Origin: Bacteroidota bacterium
Lineage (GTDB): Bacteria > Bacteroidota > Ignavibacteria > UBA10030 > SZUA-254
DNA: 64,000 nt
Direction of reading: 5' to 3'
Assembly (NCBI GenBank): GCA_036522515.1
Contig: DATDFQ010000019.1
Coordinates: forward strand, 1-64,000
Shown here one piece after another: positions 3,243 to 57,242 of the stretch. The first letter of the stretch is position 1; every line of letters begins with the position of its first letter. A program made the position numbers and the translations under genes. The notes under the pieces were generated by a model that searched no databases, was not told where the DNA came from, and saw only the letters and a program-made list of their open reading frames with translations.

Positions 3243-3266
3243 CCCGAAATATCGAAATATTTCCGG
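3243..3266 (-). promoter_or_regulatory. UUCG-loop hairpin directly upstream of GWxTD start codon
   Basis: Read on the minus strand, CCGGAAATAT-TTCG-ATATTTCGGG abuts the ATG at 3242. It pairs over about nine base pairs with one bulged G and a TTCG tetraloop. It occupies the place where a ribosome site would be expected, so it could influence initiation. Its function is inferred only. Confidence 0.4.
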
Positions 3267-3298
3267 ACAGGAGCAAGATGGATGTCATCCAAAACGCA

Positions 3299-3397
3299 TG
3301 TCATCCTGAGCACATGTCATCCTGAGCGCAGCGAAGGATCTCCCCGCCCTCGGACCGGGAGATTCTTCACTCCACTTCGTTCCGTTCAGAATGACAA
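3299..3397. repeat. GTCATCCTGAGC-type intergenic palindromic repeat
   Basis: Two head units of TGTCATCCTGAGC, then GCAGCGAAGGATCT, and an opposed end AGATTCTTCACTCCACTTCG...CAGAATGAC, forming a long imperfect inverted repeat. Related copies sit near 3456, 16330, 24877, 36868 and 47075, always between genes. No coding potential is seen. Confidence 0.7.
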
Positions 3398-3435
3398 AAA
3401 CCAGAGGGGCATCCCGATCGCTCGAGATGCCCCTC
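3396..3435 (-). terminator. Intrinsic terminator of the giant adhesin gene
   Basis: On the minus strand a perfect 10-bp stem, GAGGGGCATC / GATGCCCCTC, with an extra inner CGA/TCG pairing, is followed by TGGTTTTTGTC. It lies about 62 bp after the stop codon at 3498, which is the expected position for a rho-independent terminator. It separates the 12-kb gene from the LPS cluster. Confidence 0.8.
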
Positions 3436-3455
3436 AGTGAGAGCTGTAACCTTAC

Positions 3456-3489
3456 AGATCCTTCAGTCGCTACGCTCCTTCAGGACGAC
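3456..3489. repeat. Divergent copy of the GATCCTTCG..CTCAGGATGAC repeat
   Basis: AGATCCTTCAGTCGCTACG then CTCCTTCAGGACGAC is a variant of the same family, just downstream of the giant gene's stop codon. It is shorter and less symmetrical than the other copies. Confidence 0.5.
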
Positions 3490-3497
3490 AGAAGCGG

Positions 3498-41600: not shown

Positions 41601-42139
41601 TCGGCGCTTGTCGTGTTCGAGAGCGCCCCTGCGGGCAACGACCCCTCGAATTGGTTTGCGCTCCCGTAGCCGACAAAATCGATCACGTTCGCTCCGGCCG
41701 GGCCTGAAATGGTGACCGTGTCGCCCGCGAGAGCGACCTTCCCCCCTGTTGACGCGAGGGAGATCGTGCCGGCGGCATCGGGAGCCGGCAGCGGAGCCGT
41801 CCCGCCCGATCCCTGCGCCTCCTGCACGAGGAAGAATTGATGGGCGGGGATGGTTCCGGAGAAGACGGTTTTTTGCCAGGTGGACCCTGTTCCGGAGGCC
41901 GATTGGTACTGGACGGACCAGTGCGTCATCGTAACGGGAAATGAAGTGGGATTGTAGAGTTCGACGAAGTCGTTCTTGTAGAACGCACCGGCGTTTCCGC
42001 CGCCGCCGTAGACTTCGCTGATGACCGGGTGTGTCGCAATTTGCGCTTGAACATGATTAGTGAAGCCGCTCAGGGAGAGGATGAGAATGGAACGGCTCAG
42101 CAGGTATGGGATTCTGGATTGCCATCGCTCGACTTTCAT
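38654..42139 (-). CDS. Lamin-tail / OB-fold / beta-solenoid surface protein lacking the T9SS sorting domain
   Basis: An 1161-aa protein with an excellent ribosome site (AAGGAGG) and signal peptide (LLSRSILILSLSGFTNHVQA). Residues about 35-195 are a lamin-tail domain (VISEVYGGGGNAGAFYKNDFVELYN shape, GGKVALAGDTVTISGP, FVGYGSANQFEG). An Ig-like segment and an OB-fold (VRVSGTLNVRTNTF, GGIGLFLAGG) follow. Next is a G8/beta-solenoid-like section (WSDTNTWSSRQVPGDSSDV) resembling the giant protein. The end is the WNL/GYW doublet (ENWNLVSFPL, GTGYWCRL, GWNLIGSPAYP, GKGYWVKV). It then stops, with no partner module and no PNPFNP sorting domain, unlike all relatives here. It may be a 3'-truncated gene or a protein that stays in the periplasm. 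Confidence 0.83.
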   Translation of the reverse strand: MKVERWQSRIPYLLSRSILILSLSGFTNHVQAQIATHPVISEVYGGGGNAGAFYKNDFVELYNPTSFPVTMTHWSVQYQSASGTGSTWQKTVFSGTIPAHQFFLVQEAQGSGGTAPLPAPDAAGTISLASTGGKVALAGDTVTISGPAGANVIDFVGYGSANQFEGSLPAGALSNTTSAERKAQASSTLSSMSGGGSDSLSGNGWDGGDNRSDFVITNVQGPQNLSSPPENPPLLGDLPPVISNVARSPHVADPGGTDTVTASISDADGVVSSARISIRVDGGAFDSSVAMAPLGGTQFRGVIPSGKHGPAGTLVEYFISALDDSSKYSSTRSSPGGYFVGDAPVSAVKSHPLPDVAGYGVRVSGTLNVRTNTFANGQGFLQDASGGIGLFLAGGLPAYNAGRNVRVEGTIVSVEGAYHIGGPGFSFTDTSLGNSTIAPVTLTLPLPEASGYLNEGKLVKILALSTSSSGAFSPGTSYSYHTPGSDTITLRVESFAGLNTLSGTQIPSAPRDAVGILSYSNGFQRLKPRTASDMGNLPLLTFEAAASGNWSDTNTWSSRQVPGDSSDVTFSTPGVTVTVDLPDARCRNLTMTGSGTSLGPTLRFDQSGTPQLTINGNLSISGGSGSGQGGRSKLTSNGNGGATLVLKQGISTSTSNIIGNGSSGLNMNEGFVKLVSISSDTLRNSAGLRLGNLTVGDGVNSKVCVWSASKKTTIVLRSLIVKSHSTFWIGDAADTNSGDIGNSSANGVPTLTGGITVEPDAQLLVQQSPAGGGHGAINLDGGGITNEGTILLHTGDAAGSSYRVNIGGLPAGSASSSQSVRGSRSAGFADIEVASGHTFSIEQGFAIPDPYRLSLGGTLVELPGETVTGRVEATRLVARSAPQNFGGIGCTILADGSAPESTEVVRVTGAASGPSILRYFEIIPSVNAGLDASLDFSYDDSELNGQDPRSLRLWRSADVGATWSAPAGSIADTLSRTVRLSGIHSFSRWTASDAAHVLGNSTVEMRYSLSENWNLVSFPLSVAGRTLNSLFPGAISPAFRYDGGYLPADTLKPGTGYWCRLRSAEADTISGVAESVDSVKVSDGWNLIGSPAYPISGSQIVQVPPGIVSSNYFGYENGYVVARTLEPGKGYWVKVSGGGTLFFSAVSRAAGSVERTGSGPP

Positions 42140-42467: not shown

Positions 42468-44723
42468 TCACCGCAACAGAATCATCCGGTGTGTTTCGAT
42501 GAACTCTTTGGTGATCACCCGGTAGAAGTAGATGCCGGTGGGCACGGGAGAACCAAAGCTGTCTTTTCCGTCCCAACCGGGCGCACCGCTCGTCTGGTCG
42601 TGGAGGCCGGGCTCGAAATTTCCCGCGTCGACAACGCGCATCAGCCGTCCGAGGGCGTCATAGACCTTGATCACGACACTCGACCGGATCTTCAGCTGAA
42701 ACGGAATCAGCGCGAAGGGGGTTTGCTTCGGGATGAACGGATTGGGGAGGCTCTGTCCGACATGCTCCACTTCGTAGTTGGGCGGCGCCGGAGGAGGCGC
42801 GGGAGGAGCGCCTCCGCCGTCGGAAGTGACGAGAATGCAACCGTTCGATCCGACGATCCAGCCATGGTCATTGTCCGTGAAGGAAACGCCATAGAGAAGC
42901 CGGGCGGACGTCGTCGCCTGGACGATCCAATCGTCTCCGCCGTTCGAGGTATGGAGAATCGTTCCGGAGCTCCCGACAACCCAGCCCGAATTCTTGTCGA
43001 CAAAGTCGAGGGCAAGAAAATGCTGCGTCCCGAGGAACGGGGTGATCTCAGGGTGCCAGGTGAGCCCGCCGTTCGTGGACTTGATCAGCCGGTGAAACCT
43101 TCCGACGGCCCAGCCGGTGTCGGAATTAATGAACTGGATTTGAAAGAGGGCTCTGGCATCCCTCGCGACCTCGGTCCAGGTCGCGCCTCCGTCGGTCGTC
43201 TTCAAGATCGAAGTCGTGTCCGAATTCGCGCCGAAGACCGACGTGATCCAACCGGTCTGATTGTCAACGAAGAAGACCGAACTGAGGGTGAGCGAAGTGT
43301 CGAGCGCGGTTTCAGACCAGTCAGTCCCCCCGTTCGAGGTGTGGAGGATGGTGCCCCGCTGGCCCACGACCCAGCCGTTCTGGGGGTCGGGAAAGTAAAT
43401 GGAGAGGAGCGCATTCGACGAATCCAATTCGACTTTCGACCAGGTGAATCCGTCCGTTGTGCCGATCAGGGTTCCGGCGTCTCCGGCGGCCCAGCCCTTG
43501 CTGTCGGAGGTGAAGTAAGTCGCCCGGAGGGCGCTTCTCGTCGGCGTGGCCTCCTTCGCCCAGGTGGCTCCTCCGTCCGAGGTGCGGATCACCGTTCCCT
43601 GGGCTCCCACCGCCCACCCGAGGACCGGATCCCGGAACGTCGTCCCAAAGAGGTCGACCGTCACATTATTGCGAAACCGGGTCCAGACACCTCCCTGATT
43701 GACCGTGTACTTGATCTCTCCGTTGTCGCCGACGATCCAGCCGTTGGAGGCATCGCCGAAGGACAGGTCTCTCAGAGAGTTCACGGAGTCGAGCACCGAG
43801 GAGGACCAGGAGGTTCCGCCGTTCGAGGTCTGGAGGAGAACCCGCCCCCCGACCGCAAGTCCGACCGTCGGAGAAACGAACGTGATGCGGGACAGAATTG
43901 TCGAAGTGCCCGTGAACTGCCGGATCCAGTTGGCGCCTCCGTTTGTCGTCGCGAGGACGAGGCCTGAGGAGCCGGCGACCCACCCGGTGTCACGGTTGAC
44001 GAAATAGACGGACTGGTAATCCCGGATAAGCTGGGACGAGTCGGGGACATTGAACCAGGTGTCTCCCCCGTTCGTCGTCTTGAGGAGTGTCGCGAAATCG
44101 CCGACGCAGTAACCTGTCGTGCGCGTGGGGAAAAAGACGGATCTCAGGTCCTGGGTGGTATGGCTCACGAGCAACTTCCACTGGATTCCGCCGTCTGTCG
44201 TCCGAAGGATCGCCCCGGAATCGCCCGCGCAAAAACCGACATTTCCGCCGGCGCCGGCCACCGAGTTCAGTCCCCTGCCGCCCGCCGGTGAATTCCTCGC
44301 AACCCAATCCGTGCCGCTGTCGCTTGTGAAGAAGATGCTTCCGGAGCTGCCGACGATCCAGCCGGTGGAGGGGTTCGGGAAGAAAACGGACTTCAGGTTG
44401 ATTTCGGGGTTTGCGGTGACTTCAAGGGTCCGCCAGGTCGCGCCCCCGTCGACGCTTCTCAGGCAGGTGCCGAGTTTGCCGACCGCGACGATGGTATTGG
44501 CGTCGATCGCATCGACGCCGAGGAGGTCATTCCCTTGCGGGAGGGGATTCGCCCAGTTCCATCCGGTCTTTGGGCCGGTCTGGGAAAAGGAAAGAGTTGC
44601 GGCTGCCAGAATGAGAAAACCCGATAACACCGCACGGCGGACCGTCGATCTGGTCGTCGGTGTTCCAGGGCTTCGCGGCGCCCCCGCGGTCCCCATCCGG
44701 ATTGTGTTCCGCTGCCCGGCCAT
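42468..44723 (-). CDS. YCF48/BNR-repeat protein (13 repeats) with divergent FlgD/T9SS-type C-terminus
   Basis: A 751-aa protein with an N-terminal hydrophobic segment (LSGFLILAAATLSFSQ). It has 13 repeats of about 45 aa, each with a GxTWxxx or GxDWxxx Asp-box (GATWRTLEV, GTDWVARN, GIQWKLLVS ... GDDWIVQATT) and GW(I/V)VG strands, as in YCF48-type BNR propellers. Thirteen repeats suggest one large or two stacked propellers. The C-terminus is unusual: SLPNPFIPKQTPFALIPFQL and WDGKDSFGSPVPTGIYFYRV, closer to a FlgD-type Ig domain, ending RMILLR. Known YCF48 acts in photosystem II assembly, but extracellular relatives are common and no photosynthetic role is implied. It starts 14 bp after the upstream paralogue. 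Confidence 0.83.
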   Translation of the reverse strand: MAGQRNTIRMGTAGAPRSPGTPTTRSTVRRAVLSGFLILAAATLSFSQTGPKTGWNWANPLPQGNDLLGVDAIDANTIVAVGKLGTCLRSVDGGATWRTLEVTANPEINLKSVFFPNPSTGWIVGSSGSIFFTSDSGTDWVARNSPAGGRGLNSVAGAGGNVGFCAGDSGAILRTTDGGIQWKLLVSHTTQDLRSVFFPTRTTGYCVGDFATLLKTTNGGDTWFNVPDSSQLIRDYQSVYFVNRDTGWVAGSSGLVLATTNGGANWIRQFTGTSTILSRITFVSPTVGLAVGGRVLLQTSNGGTSWSSSVLDSVNSLRDLSFGDASNGWIVGDNGEIKYTVNQGGVWTRFRNNVTVDLFGTTFRDPVLGWAVGAQGTVIRTSDGGATWAKEATPTRSALRATYFTSDSKGWAAGDAGTLIGTTDGFTWSKVELDSSNALLSIYFPDPQNGWVVGQRGTILHTSNGGTDWSETALDTSLTLSSVFFVDNQTGWITSVFGANSDTTSILKTTDGGATWTEVARDARALFQIQFINSDTGWAVGRFHRLIKSTNGGLTWHPEITPFLGTQHFLALDFVDKNSGWVVGSSGTILHTSNGGDDWIVQATTSARLLYGVSFTDNDHGWIVGSNGCILVTSDGGGAPPAPPPAPPNYEVEHVGQSLPNPFIPKQTPFALIPFQLKIRSSVVIKVYDALGRLMRVVDAGNFEPGLHDQTSGAPGWDGKDSFGSPVPTGIYFYRVITKEFIETHRMILLR

Positions 44724-44737
44724 GCCCGCTCAAACCC

Positions 44738-47017
44738 TCATCTCAACAACAGCATCTTGTGAACGTCTATGAATTTGCCTCCGTCGACTACGAGCCGGTA
44801 GAGGTAGACGCCCGAGGGGAGATCCCTTCCCCGCGCATTCCTCCCGTTGAACAGAAGCGAGTGCCGTCCGGGCTCGAGCTTCTCATCCCGGACCAGCGTG
44901 GCGACCTCCTGGCCGAGGAGATCGTATATTTTCAGGGAAACCGTGCCTCCTCTCAGGAGATCGAAGGCGATCACCGTCGAAGGGTTGAACGGGTTGGGGT
45001 AATTGGTCGAAAGCGGAGCCTGCCTCGGCGCGAGCGGCGCACCCGCCTGGATGAACGCGGGGCTTGTGTTCTTGAGAATCGCGCCGTTTGAGCCGACGGC
45101 CCACGCATTGAGAGGATTCAGCACGGCGAGCGCGTAGAGGTTCCTGCTCGTACCGGACACCTGGCCGACCCAGGTGCTTCCGCCGTCGGAGGTGTAAAGC
45201 ATCACTCCCCCGATCCCGCACGCCCATGCGTGCGTGGCATCGTAGCATTGGATCGCGGTCAACGAGCGGACCGTGCCTGAAATTTGAGCGGCCCAGGAGA
45301 ATCCTCCGTCGGAGGTGTGCAGAATCGTGCCCCGATCTCCCACGGCCCACCCGTCGGTCTCCGAGGAGAAGTTTACCGCGCGCAGGGTGCGTGTCGTGTT
45401 CGTCGGCTGCGTAACCCAATCGGCTCCGCCGTTTGTCGTGGCGGAGAGAACGCCGCCGGAACCCGCCGCCCAGCCGTATTCCGAATTCAGAAATTGAATG
45501 CCGTAAAAATTCTTTCCGGTGCGCGTGAAGATCGGGGACCAACTCACACCCCCGTTCGTCGTCCGCAATATCTTGCCGGCGTTGGCCGCGAGATACCCGG
45601 TCTGCGGGTCGATAAACTGGATGGCGTTATAGTTCAGACTGTTGCCGGTCGGCGACGGGACCCAGCTCGCGCCGCCGTCGATGGTCTTGAGCAGAAGGCC
45701 GCTCTTCCCCGCCGCCCAACCGTTCAAAGCGTCGCGGAAATAGAGCCCTGTCAGGTTTTTCAAGAGGCCGGAGGATTGTGGCGCCCAGGTTCCCCCGCCG
45801 TTTGTGGTATGGAGGACCACCCCGCGGTTTCCGACGACCCATCCGTTGAGCGTGTCGGGGAACGAGACTGCGAGCAGGTTCGACGAGATCTGGACTTCAT
45901 GCGACTTATGCATCCAGGTCACGCCGCCGTCGGTCGTCGCGAGCATTTCTCCGCCCGTCCCCACGACCCAGCCGTTATTCAAATCGGCGAACTTCAGACC
46001 GGTCAGCGAGCGGACCGAGCCCGAGTTCTGGAGATTCCAGATCCCGCCGGCATTCACGGTCTTGTAGATTTTTCCCCTGTCGCCCACGATCCAGCCGTTA
46101 TTCCGATCGAGGAATTGCACCCCGTACAGAAAGCTGGCGGTCACGGGAGCGAAACTGATCCAGTGATCACCGCCGTCAATTGTGGCGATGATCGTGCCGG
46201 TCTGCCCGACGGCAAAGCCGTGCGTGCGGTCGACAAACGAAGCGGAGCTGAGATGGCTGATGGTCCCGGGATTTTTCGCGGTCCAGGTTGCGCCTCCGTC
46301 GGTCGTCGCAAACACCGTGCCGCTGTCTCCGACGACCCAACCGTAGGAGGGATCGACGAACCGGACGTCGTTCAGGTTCTTCGAGGTGGGGAGGACGGTC
46401 CGGTTCCAGGTGATGCCCCCGTCCACCGTCGAAAGAAGAATTCCGACGTGACCCACGACCCACCCGCGGAGATTGTCAATAAAGAAGAGTCCATAGAGGG
46501 CGGACGAGGTATTCGAAACCAGCCGGTGCCAGGTCGCGCCCGCATCGGTCGTCCGGACGATCGAGCCGAACGAGCCGACCGCGAATGCCGAATCGGGGCT
46601 GACCAGATTGACCGCCGAGAGGAAACCGCTCACACCCCCGGTGACGATCCGCGGGTTCCAGGTCGTCCCGGCGTCGCTCGACATGAGGCTTGTGCCGAGC
46701 TGCCCGACGAACAGGACGGAATCCCGGTTCAGAAGATCGACCCCGTAGAGGTTATTCCCATTCAAAACGGGGTTTTGCCATTGCCAGGAAGGCATCAACG
46801 TGTCAGCGGCAAGGTCCAGGTCATCTACATAAAACACCGAATCGCCGTAAAGAACTCCCGGATCGGAATTATCCTGGTTGTAGAACGCATCGGTCGTATC
46901 CGCGCCGTCCTGCGCCTTGCAACGGCTCGTCCCCGCAAGGAAGAGCGCGAGAGCCGCGAGCATCAGAAACGCGAACCGGCTCGCACGCACCCGCCCTTTC
47001 ATATTCTCTCCATTCAT
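44738..47017 (-). CDS. YCF48/BNR-repeat protein (13 repeats) with T9SS sorting domain
   Basis: The chosen start is the ATG at 47017, five bases after GGAGG (about 759 aa); a longer frame begins ten codons upstream without support. The signal peptide is SRFAFLMLAALALFLAGTSRCKA. There are 13 Asp-box repeats (GTTWNPRIVT, GATWHRLVS, GITWNRTVLP ... GSTWVGQVSG) separated by GWVVG or GWAAG strands. The sorting domain has TNYPNPFNPSTVIAFDL and ends KMLLLR. The same repeat number as the downstream neighbour, and the 14-bp gap, point to tandem duplication followed by divergence of the C-terminus. It is probably a secreted or surface propeller of unknown ligand. Confidence 0.87.
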   Translation of the reverse strand: MNGENMKGRVRASRFAFLMLAALALFLAGTSRCKAQDGADTTDAFYNQDNSDPGVLYGDSVFYVDDLDLAADTLMPSWQWQNPVLNGNNLYGVDLLNRDSVLFVGQLGTSLMSSDAGTTWNPRIVTGGVSGFLSAVNLVSPDSAFAVGSFGSIVRTTDAGATWHRLVSNTSSALYGLFFIDNLRGWVVGHVGILLSTVDGGITWNRTVLPTSKNLNDVRFVDPSYGWVVGDSGTVFATTDGGATWTAKNPGTISHLSSASFVDRTHGFAVGQTGTIIATIDGGDHWISFAPVTASFLYGVQFLDRNNGWIVGDRGKIYKTVNAGGIWNLQNSGSVRSLTGLKFADLNNGWVVGTGGEMLATTDGGVTWMHKSHEVQISSNLLAVSFPDTLNGWVVGNRGVVLHTTNGGGTWAPQSSGLLKNLTGLYFRDALNGWAAGKSGLLLKTIDGGASWVPSPTGNSLNYNAIQFIDPQTGYLAANAGKILRTTNGGVSWSPIFTRTGKNFYGIQFLNSEYGWAAGSGGVLSATTNGGADWVTQPTNTTRTLRAVNFSSETDGWAVGDRGTILHTSDGGFSWAAQISGTVRSLTAIQCYDATHAWACGIGGVMLYTSDGGSTWVGQVSGTSRNLYALAVLNPLNAWAVGSNGAILKNTSPAFIQAGAPLAPRQAPLSTNYPNPFNPSTVIAFDLLRGGTVSLKIYDLLGQEVATLVRDEKLEPGRHSLLFNGRNARGRDLPSGVYLYRLVVDGGKFIDVHKMLLLR

Positions 47018-47074
47018 AGTACCCTCCGACACAGTGTGACCCGACATCCGCCATCCATGACCAAACCCCTTAGC

Positions 47075-47210: not shown

Positions 47211-49805
47211 TCATCTCGACAACAGGAAATCTACTCCCGCCACTTCGTCCCCCTCGGCCTTTGCATGCACCTCGACGACACGGAACAATTCCTTTGCGAT
47301 ATAGCCCTGCTGGGTGACCTGGGACTGCTCCAGCGAAACCCTGTAGGTCCCCGGCGGCACTCCGATGAACTCAAACTCGCCGGTGGAATACGTGATGGCC
47401 GTGAGCGAGAACGCCTTCTCATCAGCGGGCGCATTCTCCGCCCGGAGAGTCACGTTGAGCCCTTCCGCCGGGAGCACTTTCTTCTCTCCCGTAAATTCGA
47501 TCTTTCCCCGGACGATGCCGCCCACAACGATCGGGAGATCGACCTGGCTGAACTGATTCGGCTCCGAGAACGCGGCCACGTTCAGATACCGCGGAACCCA
47601 GAGGGGGTTGTCCAGCGTCTGGGGTTCCAGCGTCATCACATACTCCTCATAGGGGAGAGTATGCTGGAGGCCAAATCCGATCCCGGGCGTGTATCGCAGA
47701 TACTGATTGCCGAAGAGGCTGGAACTCCTGATGCGGGCTTTCGTGACGACTTCTTCGCCCGGATCGCGCACACCGTTGGCGTTGGCATCGACAAACGGCT
47801 GAACGTTCAGGCCGCCGAATCCGACTCTCGAGTTGAGGTAGTCGAAGAAGAAATGGTTCGACGCGGAGGAATATCCGATGGAGCCGGTGACACTCTCCGA
47901 CGCCCGGAAGCCGCCCTGCCCTCCGGAAGCGACCACCGCACGGAACAGGCTGAACGGAAAATAGTAGGAGACCTGGACGCCGGCCAGCGTATTCTGCGCT
48001 TCGAACGCTCTCTGGTAGAAGACGTCGAGCCAGAATTCCCGCGTAACGCGCTTGCTGAAATCGATGCGGAGATCCCTGAAACCCCCGTCGGTATGGAAAT
48101 ACCGGGTGGCACCGCGGAGCAGAAAGCCCGAGGGAGCCCGGATCGCGAGCGAGACCGAGGTGAAGGCGTCCAGGACCGTCTCACCCTGAGGATCGACCTT
48201 CCACGACCGGCGGTGAGTGATGCGGGGAGTGAAGATGCCGAGCTGCCCGCCCAGAGAGATCTGGAAAATCCGTTCGCGGCCCGACGCGAACATGGTCTGC
48301 CTTCCGAGGAGATCGAGGCCCAACCTCGAGCCGCCGATCCGGAGCGGCAGGTTCACCGTCGCGGTCCCTTCATCGGTGATGTTCCGCGGATTGTAAAAGA
48401 CGTTTCGCGCAAACCACGAATAGGTGAGCGACCCGCCCGCCGAGGTCGGATAGCTGAGGCTCAACTGCGCCGTGGAGAACGCCGTGGGCGCGTAGGTAAA
48501 GTCGCCGAACAGCGACCCCGTAATCCTCGCGGTCGTCGTGAAGAGCGGATGGAACTTACGGTTCACGTTAAAGAGCGTGGGAGAATAGTAGTCGATCCCC
48601 GTCCCGATCGTGAGCGCGTCATTGACGCCCCATTGGATCACGCCGTTCCCGTACCACTCGTCGTTCAGGAGCCGCATCTCGCCGCCGGCGAGGCTGTACT
48701 GGACCTCCCCGGGCGGGATCATCGTGGGCGGAACGACGATCCGGTAGTCGATATCGTACTCGACGCCGAACTGGTCGTACTTTTTCACGGTGTAATTCGT
48801 GACGCCGTAGGTAATCAGAGTCGGAAAATTGAAGCGGCCCGAGGCGGTTCCGGCCTGGAAATCGATCAGGGATCCGCCGTAATACAAATCGGAAAGCTCG
48901 CCGGTCTGCAACTGTCCCTCGATGTTTTCCGTCACGAACAGAAGCCTGCGCGGCGCCGGCCTGTTCGTAATCTCAGCGCCGAACACGCTGGAGGGGACGA
49001 GTCCGGTCGTGATAATATCCCCCAGGTTGATCTGCCTGACGGCAGAATTGTCGAGGAACGCGTAGCGCAGGCGCGAACTCACGTCATTCCATGTCGGGTC
49101 ATGATGGCTCTGGCCATCAAACCGCGTATCCAGATCGCCGTACAGGAACTGGTTGCCGAGCCGCAGTGAAAAATCCTGCCGCGGAATCCCGTGCTGCGAT
49201 TCCTGCGCCCCAAACGAATAGTCCAACCTCCCGACTCCGAAAGCGGAGACCTGACGGGGCAGCGTGTACTCCGCCAGCGGAATTTTTCCCAACAGGAATT
49301 TTCTTCGCCGGGCGTATTCCCTGTCGCGCTCGAGAAAAATCGGAAGCGCCTCCTTGGTGGTCAGGGTGATATCGAGCCGCCGCGGGTTATACTTCAGCTG
49401 GAGACCGAACAGGGCTTCAAACAGGTCGATCCGAAGAAAGAGGTCCCCGGGACGAATCACGGCGTCGTTCGGAGCGATTGAGGGGGATTTGCCCCCGACT
49501 TTCGCGGACGGGGCGCCGGCGTCGATCCGGTAGGAGTTGTCGGGGCGAATGTAGAAGCCGTCCACAACCCCGGTGGCGGCGTTGTAGTTGTAGTTGAGAC
49601 GGAGAAACTTGAACAGCGCGACCATGGGAACATAGACCTGTGTTCCGCGCGCAATGATATCGAATTCGGTTCTGCCGATCCCCCTGATCGTCAGCGTCAC
49701 GGGGACCATCTGCACCGTATCAGCCGCCGGCCTGGTCTGCGCGCGGCCACTCATGGCGCCGAGAGTAACAAATATGAGAAGAGACAAGATCCATTTCGCC
49801 CTCAT
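47211..49805 (-). CDS. Outer-membrane usher-like protein (chaperone-usher pathway)
   Basis: An 864-aa protein preceded by GGGAG (7 bp) with a signal peptide (ILSLLIFVTLGAMSGRAQ). Residues about 30-155 form an N-terminal domain (VYVPMVALFKFLRLNYNY, LFEALFGLQLKYN). From about 170 there are alternating aromatic/polar strands of a barrel. Residues about 285-350 match the usher middle (plug) domain pattern (ENIEGQLQTGELSDLYYGGS, ITYGVTNYTVKKYDQFGVEY, IPPGEVQYSLAGGE). Near 672 is FVDANANGVRDPGEE. A carboxypeptidase-like domain closes it (about 775-864, GEFEFIGVPPGTYRVSLEQS). With a chaperone and a DUF4402 subunit gene directly upstream, I infer a pore for fibre subunits. An unrelated surface barrel remains possible. 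Confidence 0.78.
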   Translation of the reverse strand: MRAKWILSLLIFVTLGAMSGRAQTRPAADTVQMVPVTLTIRGIGRTEFDIIARGTQVYVPMVALFKFLRLNYNYNAATGVVDGFYIRPDNSYRIDAGAPSAKVGGKSPSIAPNDAVIRPGDLFLRIDLFEALFGLQLKYNPRRLDITLTTKEALPIFLERDREYARRRKFLLGKIPLAEYTLPRQVSAFGVGRLDYSFGAQESQHGIPRQDFSLRLGNQFLYGDLDTRFDGQSHHDPTWNDVSSRLRYAFLDNSAVRQINLGDIITTGLVPSSVFGAEITNRPAPRRLLFVTENIEGQLQTGELSDLYYGGSLIDFQAGTASGRFNFPTLITYGVTNYTVKKYDQFGVEYDIDYRIVVPPTMIPPGEVQYSLAGGEMRLLNDEWYGNGVIQWGVNDALTIGTGIDYYSPTLFNVNRKFHPLFTTTARITGSLFGDFTYAPTAFSTAQLSLSYPTSAGGSLTYSWFARNVFYNPRNITDEGTATVNLPLRIGGSRLGLDLLGRQTMFASGRERIFQISLGGQLGIFTPRITHRRSWKVDPQGETVLDAFTSVSLAIRAPSGFLLRGATRYFHTDGGFRDLRIDFSKRVTREFWLDVFYQRAFEAQNTLAGVQVSYYFPFSLFRAVVASGGQGGFRASESVTGSIGYSSASNHFFFDYLNSRVGFGGLNVQPFVDANANGVRDPGEEVVTKARIRSSSLFGNQYLRYTPGIGFGLQHTLPYEEYVMTLEPQTLDNPLWVPRYLNVAAFSEPNQFSQVDLPIVVGGIVRGKIEFTGEKKVLPAEGLNVTLRAENAPADEKAFSLTAITYSTGEFEFIGVPPGTYRVSLEQSQVTQQGYIAKELFRVVEVHAKAEGDEVAGVDFLLSR

Positions 49806-49836
49806 GCATCAGCTCCCTGTTCAGCCACGGCCACCC

Positions 49837-50721
49837 TCAGGGAAGCGTGATTTCTTGGGTGTACTTGACCGGATCGGTCTTGATCAGATACTCGTTCTGC
49901 ACACCCGGCCTGCGCGTTGCGAAGGTCACTTCCAGGCTATAGGTCCCGGCCGGGACTGTGGACACGTCAAGGAGGTAAGGATAGTCGATATCTTTGTAGA
50001 CTGCGACCTGATGATCGTCGCTCTTCACGATCTGGCCGTCGTGGTTTCTCAACCGGAGAGACATGGTCCCCCAATACGAAGCCGTCCCGGTCCTGTTAAG
50101 ACCGATGCCAAGAAGGAGTTTTCCCTTGAGCGGCGATCCCGTCACGTGAGTGATCGTAAGCCCCGTCGTAACGTGGCCGACCCGGTAATGGAGAGGGATA
50201 TCGATCTGGGAGATGTATTGCAGGTGCATCTGGAGATTGCCGCCGGGAGCGGTCGCCGCTTTGTTCTTCAATTCCCGGTCGAAGGAACTTACCACGACCC
50301 GCGCCCAGTACTCCCCCGGTGCCAGGCCCGGAGGGGGAGAAATCATGACGCGCACCAGCTGCGACTCCTTGGGTCCGAGCACAAACCGCTGTGGAAACGC
50401 CCTGATCCATGTGACGGCCGCGGGCTCGTTCACATAAGGCGAATCGACATAGTGCATCGCAAATTTACCGCTATCGCCCGCGACGGGATAGCCGTACTTG
50501 AATTCCACCCACGCCTCCTGGCGGGTTTCGGTCGGGTTGGTCACGCTTACCGAAACCGTCCTGCTCGGGAGGGTGAGGAAGAGATAAAGGGGATAGACAT
50601 CGACGCCGGCGAGAAGATTCGCCGGGGTGAGCAGCGCGAGGAGTAGTCCGGCAATCCACGCGAAGCGCGAAACAAGGAAGGGGCTTCTTCTGCTCTTGGT
50701 ATCTCGCAATGTTTCCATCAT
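49837..50721 (-). CDS. Periplasmic pilus-assembly chaperone-like protein
   Basis: About 294 aa from ATG 50721 (an ATG at 50718 and a TTG at 50727 are also possible; no strong ribosome site). The signal peptide is AWIAGLLLALLTPANLLAG. The mature N-terminus VDVYPLYLFLTLPSRTVSVS and the later FPQRFVLGPKESQLVRVMIS and PGEYWARVVVSSF follow the first Ig domain of PapD-type chaperones (proline, 'P..F.L.P...Q.VRV' strand, 'GEYWA'). ISQIDIPLHYRVG matches the start of the second domain. Such chaperones donate a strand to fold pilin subunits in the periplasm. It lies 31 bp upstream of the usher-like gene and downstream of the pilin-like gene. Confidence 0.8.
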   Translation of the reverse strand: MMETLRDTKSRRSPFLVSRFAWIAGLLLALLTPANLLAGVDVYPLYLFLTLPSRTVSVSVTNPTETRQEAWVEFKYGYPVAGDSGKFAMHYVDSPYVNEPAAVTWIRAFPQRFVLGPKESQLVRVMISPPPGLAPGEYWARVVVSSFDRELKNKAATAPGGNLQMHLQYISQIDIPLHYRVGHVTTGLTITHVTGSPLKGKLLLGIGLNRTGTASYWGTMSLRLRNHDGQIVKSDDHQVAVYKDIDYPYLLDVSTVPAGTYSLEVTFATRRPGVQNEYLIKTDPVKYTQEITLP

Positions 50722-50890
50722 TCCCAAGTGTGTTAGTAGGTGATGCTCGCCGGGTGATTCCAGAACGCGCCGGAAGGCAGAGAGGATTGGTGAGGCTATT
50801 CCGGTGAAGAGACTGTTTCGTTGGCCCTTCTCGCCCCCAGGGAATCAAAACTTTCAAAGGGAGGTGCGACAGTCGCGCGTTCCTCTAATT

Positions 50891-50943
50891 AAATGAAGAG
50901 GTACCTCTGATCATTTTTCATAACCATTGGTACCCCTTCATTT
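50891..50943 (-). promoter_or_regulatory. 15-bp inverted repeat between pilin-like and chaperone genes
   Basis: On the minus strand AAATGAAGGGGTACC, a 23-nt spacer, then GGTACCTCTTCATTT. All 15 positions pair (one G-U). It lies 27 bp after the stop of the pilin-like gene. The downstream run is AATTAGAGG rather than a U-tract, so a stabilising or processing hairpin that keeps pilin mRNA more abundant is likelier than full termination. An operator is an alternative. Confidence 0.6.
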
Positions 50944-50969
50944 GGAAAACAGTACAAAAGAACTAAAGC

Positions 50970-51521
50970 TCAGTTCCCTGTGTAGGCTGCGGAACCGATG
51001 ATCTGACCGGTGTACCCGCCGGCGAATGCCGTCTGGGGAACCAACAACGTCGCGCCGAGGAACAATCCCGTCGCTCCGCCGCCGCCGATCGTAAGATTCA
51101 CTGCGCTACCGACAACCGGGCCTGCTGCTGCAAACGGAGCGGTCGGATCGTTGTCATAGTTCCATCCGAACGTCCAGTTGCCTGTGGGGATGCCGCCGTT
51201 TTCGTCATCCGACTGTAACTGCGCCGGAAGTACCATTGTGATAACGACGTTCGAGCCGGCGTTTCCATCGACTTCAAAACCGACCGGTCCGACGACAATT
51301 CCCGCGCCTTCACCAGGTCCCGGAGGATCCTTGAATCCGCCCGGTGTGATGACGTAGGTCTGTCCCGGGGACAACACGCCCCAGTCGCCGTCGACGTTGA
51401 CGAGCGTCAAGGCATTCTCAACACTTGCCGTTACCAGCGCTTCTGCTTCGCTCTGCGCGAGTACGACATGGTTCAGCCCGATGAATAAGACGAGGGCCAG
51501 CGCCAACATGAAGCTTTTCAT
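50970..51521 (-). CDS. DUF4402-type fimbrial (pilin-like) subunit
   Basis: A 183-aa secreted protein with an AGGAGT ribosome site and signal peptide (MLALALVLFIGLNHVVLAQ). The mature protein follows the DUF4402 layout: an N-terminal strand with A(L)VTASVENALTLVNVDGDW, LSPGQTYVITPGG, a central VGFEVDGNAGSNVVITMVLP, and a C-terminal GATLLVPQTAFAGGYTGQ and SAAYTG. DUF4402 proteins are small Ig-like subunits that often sit beside periplasmic chaperone and usher genes in Proteobacteria. The following genes are chaperone- and usher-like, so I infer a surface fibre subunit. It lacks cysteines in the mature part. No convincing promoter was found upstream. Confidence 0.83.
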   Translation of the reverse strand: MKSFMLALALVLFIGLNHVVLAQSEAEALVTASVENALTLVNVDGDWGVLSPGQTYVITPGGFKDPPGPGEGAGIVVGPVGFEVDGNAGSNVVITMVLPAQLQSDDENGGIPTGNWTFGWNYDNDPTAPFAAAGPVVGSAVNLTIGGGGATGLFLGATLLVPQTAFAGGYTGQIIGSAAYTGN

Positions 51522-51798: not shown

Positions 51799-53772
51799 TT
51801 ACTTCAACAACATCATCTTCTTAACGCTTGTGTAATAATCGCCGGACACCGCCCCGTCGTCATCGATCGCCTGGGCGACAACCCGGTAGAAGTAGACTCC
51901 GGATGTCAGTCTCGAGGCGTCGAAATCGACAGAGGTCGTTCCCGCGTCAAGGAGCTCATGATCGTAGAGCGTGGCGATCTCCTGACCCAGGATATTGTAG
52001 ATCTTCACCGACACGAACGCGTCCGTCGGGAGCGCAAACTCGATCGTCGTCGTCGGGTTGAACGGGTTCGGGTAATTCTGCCGGAGCGTGAAAGTCCCGG
52101 GAATCGGATTCGGATCCACGAACGGCCTGTTGATCACAAACGGAGTGGCTTCCGTCCCCTTGTGGAGGTAGGCGACATCCGAAGCCGACCGCACGCCGGT
52201 CACGACCGTCTTCGAACCGAACGACACGGTGTCGAAGGGTCCGCTGAACGCGCTGTCGATCGCCCGGATGACGTTGTAAAGCTGCAGGAGGCTATCCGGG
52301 TCGCTGCCGACAATACTTTGCGACTGGCACGACAGAGCGCTGTCGCAGATAATCGCAAGATGGTCAAGCGTCTGCCCGTTATACCTGCCGCCGACATACG
52401 TGAACGCACCGAGCCCCGGAGCGGTCTTCGCGTTTGCGCTCGCTGCGATGTTGAACTTCAGCGCAAGCACTTCCGAAACAAGCTTGTTGTTGTGCTTGTC
52501 GGGCGGGAGGCTCTTCTGCACTTTCACGATATCCTTCAGGCTGGTGTCGAAGATGTTGAGGCAGCGGGGGGCGCCTGAGCTGACAAATCCGGCCGCCTTC
52601 TTGCTGTACAGCGTCTTCGTCGCGTCTTTCCACTTCGGATGCGTGACTTCCTTGAAGATGGGAGCGAGTTTTTCATCCACACCCGCCTGCGCAGAGATCC
52701 CGAGCCTGATTCCTACGGGTTTCCCCTTTCCATCGATCTCAGGGAACGCGCCCTGGGAGTAAAGCTCTTCGCCCACGTTATTGATGTTGGGCATCTTCAG
52801 CAGAAGCTGCGAGGCGTTCAGAGTCGCCGGACCGAGCTTGCCGCCGATGATCGTATTCGTGCCGTCCAGCCACCAGTATTTCTTCGCCGCCGGCAATTTG
52901 CCCTTGTTTCCGTAGGTGCAGATGTCCACCGAGGCGCCCACCGGTCCGGCGGGAACCGTGAAATCCCACTTCTTTTTCTTGAGTGGCGCATCGGGGCTAT
53001 TGGCCACCGTGAACGGACCGAAGCTCACCGGGGATTCATCACCTCCGCCCGGAGGAGGAATCACCGCCTGGTCGAATTCGACGTGGAGCGCGACCGCGTT
53101 CTCGGGCGGGATGTTGGGATTATTGAAGGTGAAGCAGCCGAAGCTCGCATACGCCTTCCGTTTTTCCGCGGTTGACACCTTCGCCTTGCTATTAAGAGAG
53201 AGTGCAATCTCTTCGGGCAGGAACGTGCGGTAGGTCGACTTATCCTGCGTCTTGATGAAGATATACTGGTCGCCGAGAGACTTCGCCGGATAGGTGAAGG
53301 AAGTCTGAGTCGCCATGTTCACATCCGGGAACAGGTTCGATCCCGAACCGTCCTGGAGAGTCCATTTGCCGCCTGCGGAGTCGGTGAGGTTCGCGGGCCA
53401 CGAGAATGTCACGGAGTCGCCCGAGGAGTCGCTCTTGAAGGAGATTCTCCAGCGGTCGGATTGGGCCGTGGATACTCCCTTGTGCAGGTTCTTGATCAGT
53501 CCCAGAAGGCATGTGTCCTTGCCGGTGCCGGATAGGATCGTGATCGACCGTGCGTCAAAAGATCCACCCGGAGGTTCGACCGGTTGCTCCTCTTCTCCCA
53601 ATGCCGAATCGATGTGGTTTGTCGCTGCCGGGTCAAAACCGATGACGATGTTCACCGCGCCTACGTTGTCGGTGACGTGAATCGGCACCTTTACTTTCTG
53701 CGCCATGACGGTCTGGGAGAGCATCAACACACCCAAACACATCAGGACGATAAATCCGCTAGCCTTCTTCAT
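51799..53772 (-). CDS. T9SS-exported protein carrying the YRTF/LALKFNI module
   Basis: A 657-aa protein with GAGG five bases before the ATG and a signal peptide (FIVLMCLGVLMLSQTVMAQ). The N-terminal 170 residues are a beta-rich domain reminiscent of cohesin-like folds (VPIHVTDNVGAVNIVIGFDP), but I cannot assign it firmly. The complete module follows: YRTFLPEEIALSLNSKAKV, an ALHVEFDQAVIPPPGG segment, KKWDFTVPAG, NNVGEELYSQGAF, GAPRCLNIFD, NNKLVSEVLALKFNIAASAN and INxAF-type helices. The sorting domain has QNYPNPFNPTTTIEFAL and ends KKMMLLK. It is the gene before the chaperone-usher-like locus and may share a transcript with it, since no promoter is evident between. Confidence 0.82.
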   Translation of the reverse strand: MKKASGFIVLMCLGVLMLSQTVMAQKVKVPIHVTDNVGAVNIVIGFDPAATNHIDSALGEEEQPVEPPGGSFDARSITILSGTGKDTCLLGLIKNLHKGVSTAQSDRWRISFKSDSSGDSVTFSWPANLTDSAGGKWTLQDGSGSNLFPDVNMATQTSFTYPAKSLGDQYIFIKTQDKSTYRTFLPEEIALSLNSKAKVSTAEKRKAYASFGCFTFNNPNIPPENAVALHVEFDQAVIPPPGGGDESPVSFGPFTVANSPDAPLKKKKWDFTVPAGPVGASVDICTYGNKGKLPAAKKYWWLDGTNTIIGGKLGPATLNASQLLLKMPNINNVGEELYSQGAFPEIDGKGKPVGIRLGISAQAGVDEKLAPIFKEVTHPKWKDATKTLYSKKAAGFVSSGAPRCLNIFDTSLKDIVKVQKSLPPDKHNNKLVSEVLALKFNIAASANAKTAPGLGAFTYVGGRYNGQTLDHLAIICDSALSCQSQSIVGSDPDSLLQLYNVIRAIDSAFSGPFDTVSFGSKTVVTGVRSASDVAYLHKGTEATPFVINRPFVDPNPIPGTFTLRQNYPNPFNPTTTIEFALPTDAFVSVKIYNILGQEIATLYDHELLDAGTTSVDFDASRLTSGVYFYRVVAQAIDDDGAVSGDYYTSVKKMMLLK

Positions 53773-53892: not shown

Positions 53893-56800
53893 TTACTTCA
53901 TCAACATGATCTTTCTGACCGCGCTGAAGTCGCCGGCGGTCATGCGGACCATGTACATTCCCGACGGGACGTTCAAGCCATGTCCGTCTTTCGAATCCCA
54001 CTCCATCACATGGTAGCCTGCCTCCTGCTCGCCGCTCATCAGAGTCGTGATCTTCCGGCCCAGCACGTCGTACACTGTGATGTCGACCACTGCCGCTCTC
54101 GGAATATCAACGCTGAAGTGCGTCGTCGGGTTGAAGGGATTCGGATAATTCTGGGATAGTGCAAACACCTTCGGTACTGACAGTCCTTCCGTCAGCTTCA
54201 GCACCAGCTTCGTCACGTTTGCATCCGTGATCGTCACCTTCCCGCTTCCATCGATGACACCCAGCATCTTGCTGTCCTTCGCCGCAACGGCCATGAGAGC
54301 AAGCTTCTGTGTGCCGCCGCGAGCGGCTTCCCATCTGACAATGAGCGGATACACGGCACCCTGCATCGAAATCGGGTACTCGTAGGTCTTCGAGGGATCT
54401 GCCTGCGCGGGATAGACCTCAACCATCCTGCCCGAGGAGAAGCGCACGTTCAATGCGCCTTCGGGTGCGGAAGGAGGCATCTCGTACTTGCCGGCAGCTG
54501 CCGCGCTGAGGACGCCGTCGGAGCCGACATAGAGCGTCTGGGCGCGTCCCATCTTGTCCTGGATCGTGACCTTGTCGAGCGCCGCAAGCTCTTCGATTCC
54601 GGGAGCCTGCTTCGGCACCGCACCGGTCCCGACGATATGCAGCGTCCCGGGTGCGCTGGTTTTCACCCAGTATCCTTTTCCGGGAGCGATGGTCGTCGCC
54701 ACGGTGTAGGAACCGCTGAATCCGAAGAAGGGCGATGTGATGATTCCGGGGGGCGTCGTCGTCAATGAGCTGACCAGCACGGGAGACGAGACAGAGCCGA
54801 CCATATTCCAGTTCGCATCGAGAGCGTCATCAACGGATGTCAGATGACTTCCCGGCGCATCGAGAGTCTGGGAGCCGCTGAATTTCAACCAAAACCCGGG
54901 CCCGTTCGCCAGGGTCTGTGTCGACTGGTAGCTTCCGTGGTATGCGAAAGCGCTCGGCGAAACCGCGGTCGGATAAAGGAACGACTTCGCGTGACTCGGA
55001 GGAGTCTGCCCAACCGAGACGAGGTTCCATCCGTCTGTCCCTGCGACCGTGTAAAGCACCGGGTAGTACGTGACGCACAAGCCGGCGTGCAGGTGGCTCT
55101 GGGCGGGGAATCCGTCCTTGTTAAAGTAATTGAACGGGGCGATCGGACCCGGAGGATGCTTCAATGAATCCGAGTTCAAACCGGTCAGGTTCAACGTATC
55201 GAGGCCGCCGATTCCGATCGAGGTGTACTGGAACTGTATCGTCCCGGCCGCGCGATCAAGAACCACACGGAAGACGTCGTTATCCGCGATCGCTCCGGTC
55301 GCGTCGAAATCACCGCTCGAATCCCACTCGGCGATAAACTTGCCCGGGAAAGCCGTGGTGCTCGTCCGGACATGTCCGAACGTCGCGATCGGGGAATCCT
55401 GCTTGCTGATCCAGTCCGCCCAGAACGGGGCGATCATATTCTTCGGCATGAAGCCCGCGGCGCGGCGTGTGGTATCGGGCCGCCCCTGGTGCTGGCGCTG
55501 CGGAAGGTCGAACCCGTCGGTAGCAAATCCGTTCGAGTTGACGTCGAGCGTATCGGTCACACCCTTCGAGAGCGCGATTGCGCCGTTCACGCCGACCCAC
55601 GCGTAATTCAACGTGTCGCCGAAATAGATGAACGAACCGCCGAGCGAGTAGGGACCGGCTGTTCCGTCGTCACCCGGATGCGTGTTGGTCGTTCCGGGAG
55701 GCAGGAACCACTTGGAGGTATCGATCACCGTGCCCGTCCCGACGATGCTCATCGGGGTGCAGGCGACTGTCGTGTCGGCCCTGTAGTAGGTGCTGTTAAA
55801 GTCGACAACCTTGTATCTGAAATCCGAAGAGGAATCCGCAAGGCCGGTCGAATCGTATGCATACACCTTGTACCGCACGATTCTGTTCTTCGCATTGGTT
55901 CCGGGGAGGGATCCAAGGAAGGTGTCGCCTCCGATATTGTCGAGCGATGCGGAACCGCTCGAGAGCGTATTTCCGGCGAGGTCCGTAACCGTATATTGCA
56001 TGCTCGCCGTTTGAATGCCGGCGTGCGTCGGTTGCTCGGCGTCGCAGTCGAATATTTCCGCGGTAATGGTCTGGCTGTTCGTCGAGATCGTGTTCACGGG
56101 ACCGTCGACGCTATTGATCTTCGGAGGAACGTTCGTGGTGGGAGTCATGATGTACCACACATCGTACACCGCGCCCGCCGTGGTGTCGTCCACCAGAGGT
56201 CCGCGCGCCACCCACCCCTTCTTGATTGCAGAGGCCGGGGTCCCCGCGCAGTTGGAGGGCCCTGAATCGTGCTCATAAAATTTCCAGTTACGCGCCGGGA
56301 ATGGCGGGTACGGAGGATTGTTGCCGTTGGCGCCGAACTGCGTCGGGGCCGGGTCAGGATACGCCTGCGGTGCCGCCTGCGAATTCATCTTGAGCGAGAA
56401 GAAGAACGTCTCGCCGATGTCGATCGTATCTTTTACGCCGGCGGAGTGATGCTTGATCTGGAACCCGCCCGGGATGATGTCCATCGGGACTTCTGTAACA
56501 CCCTGAGAAACAATCTTGACCGGAACGCCGCTCAGACCCCATACGCTCAGGCCGAACGGTTCGAACGACGGGATTGTCCCTCCGTTCGTTTCAATCGTCG
56601 AGTGCCAGTTGGTGTCGGTTGCGTCTTCGATGAAGGGCGCAACGCCGTTCTCAAGATCGGCGGTGCTCAGCCAGTAACCCCAGCTCCTGCAGGGCCGCGG
56701 GTAATCATAACCGGGACCGTGACCGGGAGAGATGTTGGATTTGAAGATCCGGACGATGACCTGGGAGTCAAGAGCGGAAATCGTCGAGCCGGCGGGCTGC

Positions 56801-57114
56801 TGGAAGAAAAACGTGTCGACAGTGCCGCGCGCGGGAGCGACGAACCATTCGCCCATGACATCCTTGTGACTGAATCCAAAACGAGAATCGATAGGAAAGT
56901 GCAGCGGATCGAATCCAAACTGTGCTCCTCCGCTGCAGTTATCCAGCACGCTCTGAGCCGCACGCTCCTTGTTGTACTTTTCGATCAATTTCTGAGCGGA
57001 ACTGCCGCGAGGGATGGGGATAACTTCCTGATTGGGGGAGACGAGGTATTTCTTCTGCGCAAGGGAGAAACAACTAAATAGAACTACGCAGAGGAAGGCT
57101 GTAAAAAACCGCAT
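53893..57114 (-). CDS. T9SS-exported protein with Ig-like region and WNL/GYW doublet
   Basis: The preferred start is the ATG at 57114 (AAGGAG 8 bp upstream; about 1073 aa); a longer frame begins seven codons earlier. The signal peptide is FFTAFLCVVLFSCFSLAQ. About residues 330-440 look Ig-like (VNTISTNSQTITAEIFDCDA, YKVYAYDSTGLADSSSDF). About 500-680 has a jelly-roll feel (GKFIAEWDSSGDFDA, VFRVVLDRAAGTIQFQY). The WNL/GYW doublet follows (DGWNLVSVGQ, GPGFWLKF, NWNMVGSV, GKGYWVKT), then the partner module (YEMPPSAPEGALNVRFSSGR) and a sorting domain with QNYPNPFNPTTHFSVDI ending RKIMLMK. No enzymatic motif is recognised. It is driven by the promoter at 57243-57271. Confidence 0.83.
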   Translation of the reverse strand: MRFFTAFLCVVLFSCFSLAQKKYLVSPNQEVIPIPRGSSAQKLIEKYNKERAAQSVLDNCSGGAQFGFDPLHFPIDSRFGFSHKDVMGEWFVAPARGTVDTFFFQQPAGSTISALDSQVIVRIFKSNISPGHGPGYDYPRPCRSWGYWLSTADLENGVAPFIEDATDTNWHSTIETNGGTIPSFEPFGLSVWGLSGVPVKIVSQGVTEVPMDIIPGGFQIKHHSAGVKDTIDIGETFFFSLKMNSQAAPQAYPDPAPTQFGANGNNPPYPPFPARNWKFYEHDSGPSNCAGTPASAIKKGWVARGPLVDDTTAGAVYDVWYIMTPTTNVPPKINSVDGPVNTISTNSQTITAEIFDCDAEQPTHAGIQTASMQYTVTDLAGNTLSSGSASLDNIGGDTFLGSLPGTNAKNRIVRYKVYAYDSTGLADSSSDFRYKVVDFNSTYYRADTTVACTPMSIVGTGTVIDTSKWFLPPGTTNTHPGDDGTAGPYSLGGSFIYFGDTLNYAWVGVNGAIALSKGVTDTLDVNSNGFATDGFDLPQRQHQGRPDTTRRAAGFMPKNMIAPFWADWISKQDSPIATFGHVRTSTTAFPGKFIAEWDSSGDFDATGAIADNDVFRVVLDRAAGTIQFQYTSIGIGGLDTLNLTGLNSDSLKHPPGPIAPFNYFNKDGFPAQSHLHAGLCVTYYPVLYTVAGTDGWNLVSVGQTPPSHAKSFLYPTAVSPSAFAYHGSYQSTQTLANGPGFWLKFSGSQTLDAPGSHLTSVDDALDANWNMVGSVSSPVLVSSLTTTPPGIITSPFFGFSGSYTVATTIAPGKGYWVKTSAPGTLHIVGTGAVPKQAPGIEELAALDKVTIQDKMGRAQTLYVGSDGVLSAAAAGKYEMPPSAPEGALNVRFSSGRMVEVYPAQADPSKTYEYPISMQGAVYPLIVRWEAARGGTQKLALMAVAAKDSKMLGVIDGSGKVTITDANVTKLVLKLTEGLSVPKVFALSQNYPNPFNPTTHFSVDIPRAAVVDITVYDVLGRKITTLMSGEQEAGYHVMEWDSKDGHGLNVPSGMYMVRMTAGDFSAVRKIMLMK

Positions 57115-57242
57115 AGGCACTACTCCTTTCAGCAACTCTTGTTGATTGATAGTGTGTGGTGCGAAGAGTTTTAAGAAAAAGGTGAAAATCCGAGCTCTAC
57201 TACGTGCTGCACTTGGTCGAGATACGACCTGGGGACAGATTG

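Follow-up and report, generated by a model that had tools for sequence, protein, structure and literature searches.

A chaperone-usher operon with a DUF4402-like subunit

The window analysed in this study is a 64,000-nucleotide stretch of contig DATDFQ010000019.1 from a Bacteroidota bacterium, and all positions follow its numbering. Three consecutive genes on the minus strand (core locus, 47211-51521) encode a DUF4402-like fibre subunit, a PapD-fold periplasmic chaperone and an outer-membrane usher. By predicted fold, profile comparison and gene content, the locus is a chaperone-usher pathway. We believe, with a probability of roughly 0.86, that it is a working pathway of a distinct clade with DUF4402 subunits, and that it builds a thin surface fibre by strand exchange. 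Three classes of chaperone-usher pili are distinguished, mostly known from Proteobacteria, Cyanobacteria and Deinococcota, and type V fimbriae are the textbook fimbriae of Bacteroidota. A fourth, DUF4402-based lineage would extend chaperone-usher pili to Bacteroidota, Gemmatimonadota and Neomarinimicrobiota, and would give DUF4402 a function.

The first-pass annotation, made by eye, had proposed a chaperone-usher pathway with a DUF4402-like subunit. The three genes lie where it placed them, all the motifs that it quoted are present, and predicted folds, profiles and homologue matches agree with its proposal. Taken singly, the window proteins reached no Pfam or NCBIfam cut-off, and nothing usher- or PapD-like was returned, so recognition by eye went further than routine annotation. 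The gene identities were settled because homologues match the family models and the predicted folds match. Short matches to unrelated proteins in the PDB, Pfam and NCBIfam searches were judged to be chance. A hydrophobic N-terminal stretch resembling a Sec signal is found in the subunit, chaperone and usher alike.

Usher

The usher gene (47211-49805, minus strand) encodes 864 residues. Its predicted model has a predicted local distance difference test score (pLDDT) of 83, and the strand list of the model gives a barrel of 24 strands at residues 189-646 (47868-49241). A beta domain between barrel strands 6 and 7 (residues ~288-358; 48732-48944) is collinear with the canonical plug region. In PapC and FimD, the plug is known to follow strand 6 of a 24-strand barrel. 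The periplasmic N-terminal domain (residues 32-150; 49356-49712) is predicted as a folded alpha/beta domain with weak similarity to Cu_amine_oxidN1, and the C-terminal beta domains (residues ~651-864; 47214-47855) weakly match CarboxypepD_reg. In a Foldseek search of PDB, the top 18 matches were all FimD or PapC chains (E 2e-26 to 2e-14), and the next unrelated barrel stood at 1e-5. VIA gave Z 20.5 over 549 residues to FimD, compared with about 15 for unrelated barrels. A model lacking a 24-strand barrel and plug, or fitting an unrelated barrel best, had been named in advance as the outcome that would speak against an usher; the barrel and plug are present, and the best fold matches are FimD and PapC.

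Profile comparison points the same way. The family usher alignment matched seven classical ushers collinearly over 549 columns (E 8e-17), and a window-centred alignment reached 8e-12; the best of the reversed and block-shuffled decoys was 7e-4. This indicates homology to the canonical ushers. The window usher did not match the Pfam Usher model PF00577 at E<=10. The same model was weakly matched by 2 of 19 usher homologues; of 198 Bacteroidota genomes, none gave a match above its cut-off, whereas the E. coli control did. The standard pilus-family models miss a widespread branch, in which "carboxypeptidase-like regulatory" is an annotation given to ushers.

Many related ushers carry C-terminal extensions: SPOR domains, which bind peptidoglycan, in 9/19 (for example L034, L036 and L048) and TPR repeats in about 4/19 (for example L046 and L051). 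These tails suggest ushers tethered to peptidoglycan or to other partners. To our knowledge, no described usher is tied to the cell wall through such SPOR tails.

Chaperone

The chaperone gene (49837-50727, minus strand) encodes 296 residues from a TTG codon; an ATG at 50721 or 50718 is a possible alternative start. The AlphaFold2 model (pLDDT 88) contains two immunoglobulin (Ig) domains, the absence of which the first-pass annotation would have taken as evidence against a chaperone. The best Foldseek matches were CfaA, CsuC and EcpB, followed by classical chaperones including Caf1M and FimC (E 1e-9 to 1e-7). The chaperone profile matched classical chaperones with E 9e-9, for which the best decoy was 1.5e-5, a weaker separation than that of the ushers; a second comparison gave 1.6e-6. 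Among the relatives, which were located by the usher alone, the chaperone gene lies directly upstream of the usher gene in 77 of the 78 cases with at least 700 bp of upstream sequence, mostly with a 4-bp overlap or less than 100 bp apart. In the single exception, the usher frame is broken and the match is its second half. Because the usher alone was used to find these loci, the linkage is not circular.

VIA placed pilus chaperones at Z ~13-14 over both domains, and structures of the WxLIP type tied for best (Z 14.3). Together with matches of 4/20 chaperone homologues to WxLIP_PGBD, this tie could be read to mean that the gene encodes a WxLIP-like surface protein rather than an assembly chaperone. 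However, WxLIP proteins are Gram-positive, PapD_N is matched by more of the homologues (9/20), Foldseek puts pilus chaperones first, and the gene accompanies an usher in nearly every locus, so that we regard a WxLIP-like protein as very improbable. Separately, the fold tie and the WxLIP_PGBD matches hint that WxLIP proteins and pilus chaperones have a common ancestor. One relative, L043, has two chaperone genes (2961-3851 and 5099-5899) in one operon with five subunit genes.

Residue conservation was assessed in 55 chaperones. P112 is invariant (55/55) and aligns with the conserved proline in domain 1 of canonical chaperones; R126 is invariant in the family. R143, inside the strand-F1 motif YWxR, is likewise invariant (55/55), and Y263, in strand F2 of domain 2, is a tyrosine in 52/55. 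In the G1 strand, positions 167, 169 and 171 are hydrophobic in 55/55 and positions 166, 168 and 170 mostly polar, and such an alternating hydrophobic pattern is a requirement of donor-strand complementation. The positions matching the classical Arg8 and Lys112 (48 and 178/179) are not basic; they are mostly Asn/Ala/Thr/Ser and Ala/Gly/Leu, respectively. In non-classical chaperones the classical Arg/Lys pair is absent, and the C-terminus of the subunit is held by an arginine of strand F1 and a tyrosine of strand F2 in domain 2, which in CsuC are Arg89 and Tyr196 (PMC4654587). R143 and Y263 are candidate counterparts of this pair.

Subunit

The subunit gene (50970-51521, minus strand) encodes 183 residues. 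Against DUF4402 (PF14352) the window subunit alone scored 15.2 bits (E 0.035), below the curated cut-off of 25.2. DUF4402 was matched by 22 of 28 family subunits tested (E<=0.1; best 4e-23), and SCPU only marginally, by 2/28, at E 0.05 or worse. The signal-like stretch of the subunit is followed by a hydrophobic extension (residues ~24-41) at the N-terminal side, which is a candidate donor strand. The C-terminal strand reads GxY...AAY, and a corresponding GxY...hxY strand occurs in 197/231 subunits. The window subunit contains no cysteine at all, the signal region included. Conserved cysteines (CYE..., FNTC) occur in many family subunits, such as those of L033, L132-L134, L136 and L142, and are missing from the window subunit and that of its congener.

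A single subunit gene had been proposed, and a search with a family-specific profile found no second one in the genome. The DUF4402 hidden Markov model (HMM) gave no match in this genome and missed the window subunit itself; absence by that model therefore means little, and for this reason the family-specific profile was used instead. The description of the locus as minimal fits the window's family, whose complete loci each have a lone subunit gene ahead of the chaperone gene, and a few other families. It does not fit the system elsewhere: in 59 loci with at least 5 kb of upstream sequence, four subunit genes were found in 39, three in 11, and one in only five.

Selection on the three genes

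Relative to the congener, the ratio of nonsynonymous to synonymous substitution rates (dN/dS) was 0.08 for the subunit, 0.12 for the chaperone and 0.10-0.13 for the usher; synonymous sites of the chaperone and usher are near saturation. Judged by these ratios, the three genes are under purifying selection. The number of subunit genes, smaller than in most relatives, might suggest a decaying or non-functional remnant. We give this idea almost no credence, since it is already contradicted by dN/dS of 0.08-0.13, by the open frames, and by the presence of the usher in 15/15 genomes of the window's family.

Hairpin between the subunit and chaperone genes

A long stem-loop (50891-50943, minus strand; z -5.65 over 110 nt) lies just 3' of the subunit stop codon and is a candidate attenuator or processing site. 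Of the 14 loci folded, the window included, 13 have a clear hairpin behind their last subunit gene. Comparable hairpins (z -2.6 to -5.3) were found in 12 of the 13 other loci, among them those of Balneolaceae, a Bacteroidales metagenome-assembled genome (MAG) and Algoriphagus, and a U run often follows; the exception is L131 (z -0.87). Most likely, the hairpin acts through partial termination or mRNA protection, by which the subunit would exceed the chaperone and usher.

Proposed mechanism

By analogy with described chaperone-usher systems, we infer the following course. Sec would carry the subunit, chaperone and usher across the inner membrane. The G1 strand of the chaperone would complete the fold of the subunit, and the subunit C-terminus would be held by the chaperone, probably via R143 (F1) and Y263 (F2, domain 2), as in non-classical chaperones. 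The complex would then dock on the usher, whose plug would vacate the 24-strand pore. The N-terminal extension of the incoming subunit would displace the chaperone strand in the previous one, producing a homopolymeric surface fibre, and the stem-loop after the subunit gene would probably make the subunit outnumber the chaperone and usher.

Several observations weigh against this reading. The Pfam and PDB sequence searches, by single sequence and by profile HMM, miss the homology of the window chaperone and usher. The equivalence of the usher N-terminal domain (residues 32-150) to that of FimD, which recruits chaperone-subunit complexes, is putative. The profile match of the subunits to classical subunits spans only the signal and N-terminal part, and the incomplete Ig fold is a prediction, one that the sequence pattern of the subunit fits; this comparison, in which mostly the signal peptide and N-terminus were aligned, was excluded as evidence. 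Along the strand, R143 and the position aligned with EcpB R89, where the Polaromonas branch has an arginine, are two residues apart, and because of this offset the anchor assignment stays a model. Finally, the fibre itself is extrapolated from the mechanism of the family.

Relationship to known systems

Type 1 and P pili (FimCD, PapDC) represent the classical systems. They share with the window the 24-strand usher with a plug between strands 6 and 7, C-terminal domains and a collinear profile, and the chaperone with two Ig domains. Here, however, the subunits are of the DUF4402 type and are all encoded before the chaperone and usher, PF00577 is not reached, the Bacteroidota members lack the classical Arg8/Lys112 anchor, and no adhesin gene follows the window usher. 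The alternative pili (EcpB/EcpC, CfaA) have in common with the window chaperone the domain 1 proline and the F1 arginine, and EcpB and CfaA are among the top fold matches; their subunits and usher sequence are distant, and EcpC alone gives no usable profile match. With the type V FimA/Mfa fimbriae the window shares the phylum Bacteroidetes. The precursors of type V subunits are matured stepwise by a protease, and no chaperone or usher is known for them (PMC5789003). In contrast, the present locus has a chaperone and an usher, and its subunit lacks a lipobox cysteine.

The locus had also been suggested to be a branch of the archaic (sigma) clade, which includes Csu and CupE. Of the known systems, it is the archaic ones that occur in several phyla (PMC4654587). 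The window chaperone resembles theirs in its non-classical Arg/Tyr-type anchor residues, and CsuC is among its best fold matches; the Arg (F1)/Tyr (F2) anchor type without the classical pair is common to archaic and alternative chaperones. The subunits argue otherwise, being DUF4402 here and SCPU in archaic systems, and PF00577 stays below its cut-off. In a tree of 22 ushers with long branches, an archaic usher from Palleronia joined the classical ones to the exclusion of all DUF4402 ushers (98% support in the Shimodaira-Hasegawa-like approximate likelihood ratio test, SH-aLRT), the archaic sample being this one row, from a plasmid operon with SCPU genes. Tentatively, the DUF4402 ushers form a clade of their own, apart from the archaic, classical and alternative ushers sampled. 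Because of the subunit type and this separation, archaic membership was not borne out, and we consider it quite unlikely.

In the openly licensed papers of PMC, none naming DUF4402 and none with such a Bacteroidota chaperone-usher system was found; a prior description elsewhere is possible.

Distribution of the DUF4402 system

Usher relatives occurred in 60 of 296 genomes sampled across Bacteroidota, and chaperone profile matches in 83/296, the weakest being partial. A named-locus scan yielded 63 loci from Balneolaceae, Algoriphagus, Cecembia, Rhodonellum, Bacteroidales MAGs, Gemmatimonadetes and one Neomarinimicrobiota fragment; the scan ran from a Balneolaceae-centred alignment, which biases the loci to Balneolaceae. 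DUF4402 genes also occur on plasmids of Polaromonas and Pseudoalteromonas, together with a chaperone gene and an usher gene whose annotation is "carboxypeptidase(-like) regulatory". In a small database, matches of these proteins to the usher profile had E 1e-58 to 2e-83, and those to the chaperone profile 2e-18 to 4e-23. By these matches, the DUF4402 system spans Bacteroidota, Gemmatimonadota and Pseudomonadota plasmids. The Polaromonas operons (NZ_MG869618, NC_007950) have the same components as the window and differ from it in a chaperone arginine near the N-terminus, EYRS in place of YWxR, several subunits, and IS6 elements nearby. The operon lies near IS6 elements in L115 and L117, both on Polaromonas plasmids, one of them conjugative; in view of this setting, it can probably move between hosts.

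On the Pseudoalteromonas xiamenensis plasmid (L116), stand-alone SPOR-domain genes lie on both sides of the operon, which recalls the SPOR tails that other ushers carry as fusions. Other features were noted by eye in Balneolaceae. Small proteins with a single membrane span (MGRAMLII...), resembling minor pseudopilins, precede the subunits in L036, L039 and L045, and very large repeat proteins lie upstream of the operon in L037 and L039. In Balneola (L037:1830-6780, L045:10089-15035) the neighbours of the usher are another repeat-type protein, a small gene of lipoprotein-like character and a pair resembling MotA/MotB.

Conserved block and type IX secretion cargo

The window's genome encodes a type IX secretion system (T9SS), as had been proposed for its lineage (SprA, E 6e-52), and genes for T9SS-type cargo surround the locus, in line with the earlier placement inside a cargo array. 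In minus-strand order, a large T9SS-type cargo gene (53893-57135), which forms the upstream end of the conserved block, and a second cargo gene (51799-53772; Por_Secre_tail E 2e-9), which adjoins the subunit gene on its upstream side, precede the subunit, hairpin, chaperone and usher. YCF48a, a YCF48/BNR-repeat protein with a T9SS-type tail (44738-47047), lies directly downstream of the usher and is a candidate partner; a second YCF48/BNR-repeat protein, YCF48b (42468-44723), and a lamin-tail-domain surface protein (38654-42139) complete the block, all on the minus strand.

YCF48a is the next gene after the usher in 13/13 family loci with downstream sequence, the window included, often within ~60 bp or overlapping; the gap in the window is 163 bp. 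YCF48b and the lamin-tail gene then follow, save in one genus and at contig ends. Upstream of the subunit, a T9SS cargo gene is present in 9/9 family loci that reach that far. That the arrangement stays fixed at 30-50% protein identity suggests a joint function, but co-transcription of surface protein genes would account for it as well. A link between the operon and the T9SS may exist, and the fixed neighbourhood offers a direct way to test cooperation of two secretion systems.

Two ideas involve the T9SS neighbours. First, the locus might be an exporter derived from a chaperone-usher pathway, which delivers DUF4402 subunits to the cell surface singly or as short oligomers, for instance as a docking coat for T9SS cargo, and makes no long fibre. 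The presence of one subunit gene, with no terminator or adhesin gene found, and the constant T9SS-type neighbours in the family would suit such an exporter. Nevertheless, the subunit retains the N-terminal hydrophobic extension and C-terminal strand seen in subunits of multi-gene relatives, and the hairpin between subunit and chaperone fits a need for excess subunit; we consider the exporter unlikely, if possible. Second, in the window's family a fibre assembled as proposed above might join T9SS-exported YCF48 proteins at the surface in a hybrid organelle, the adhesive part of the pilus being delivered by the other system, which we put forward as a doubtful but conceivable extension.

Elsewhere in the window, a T9SS-type cargo gene of 4024 residues was found at 3498-15572 (minus strand), and further cargo genes continue to ~38.6 kb.

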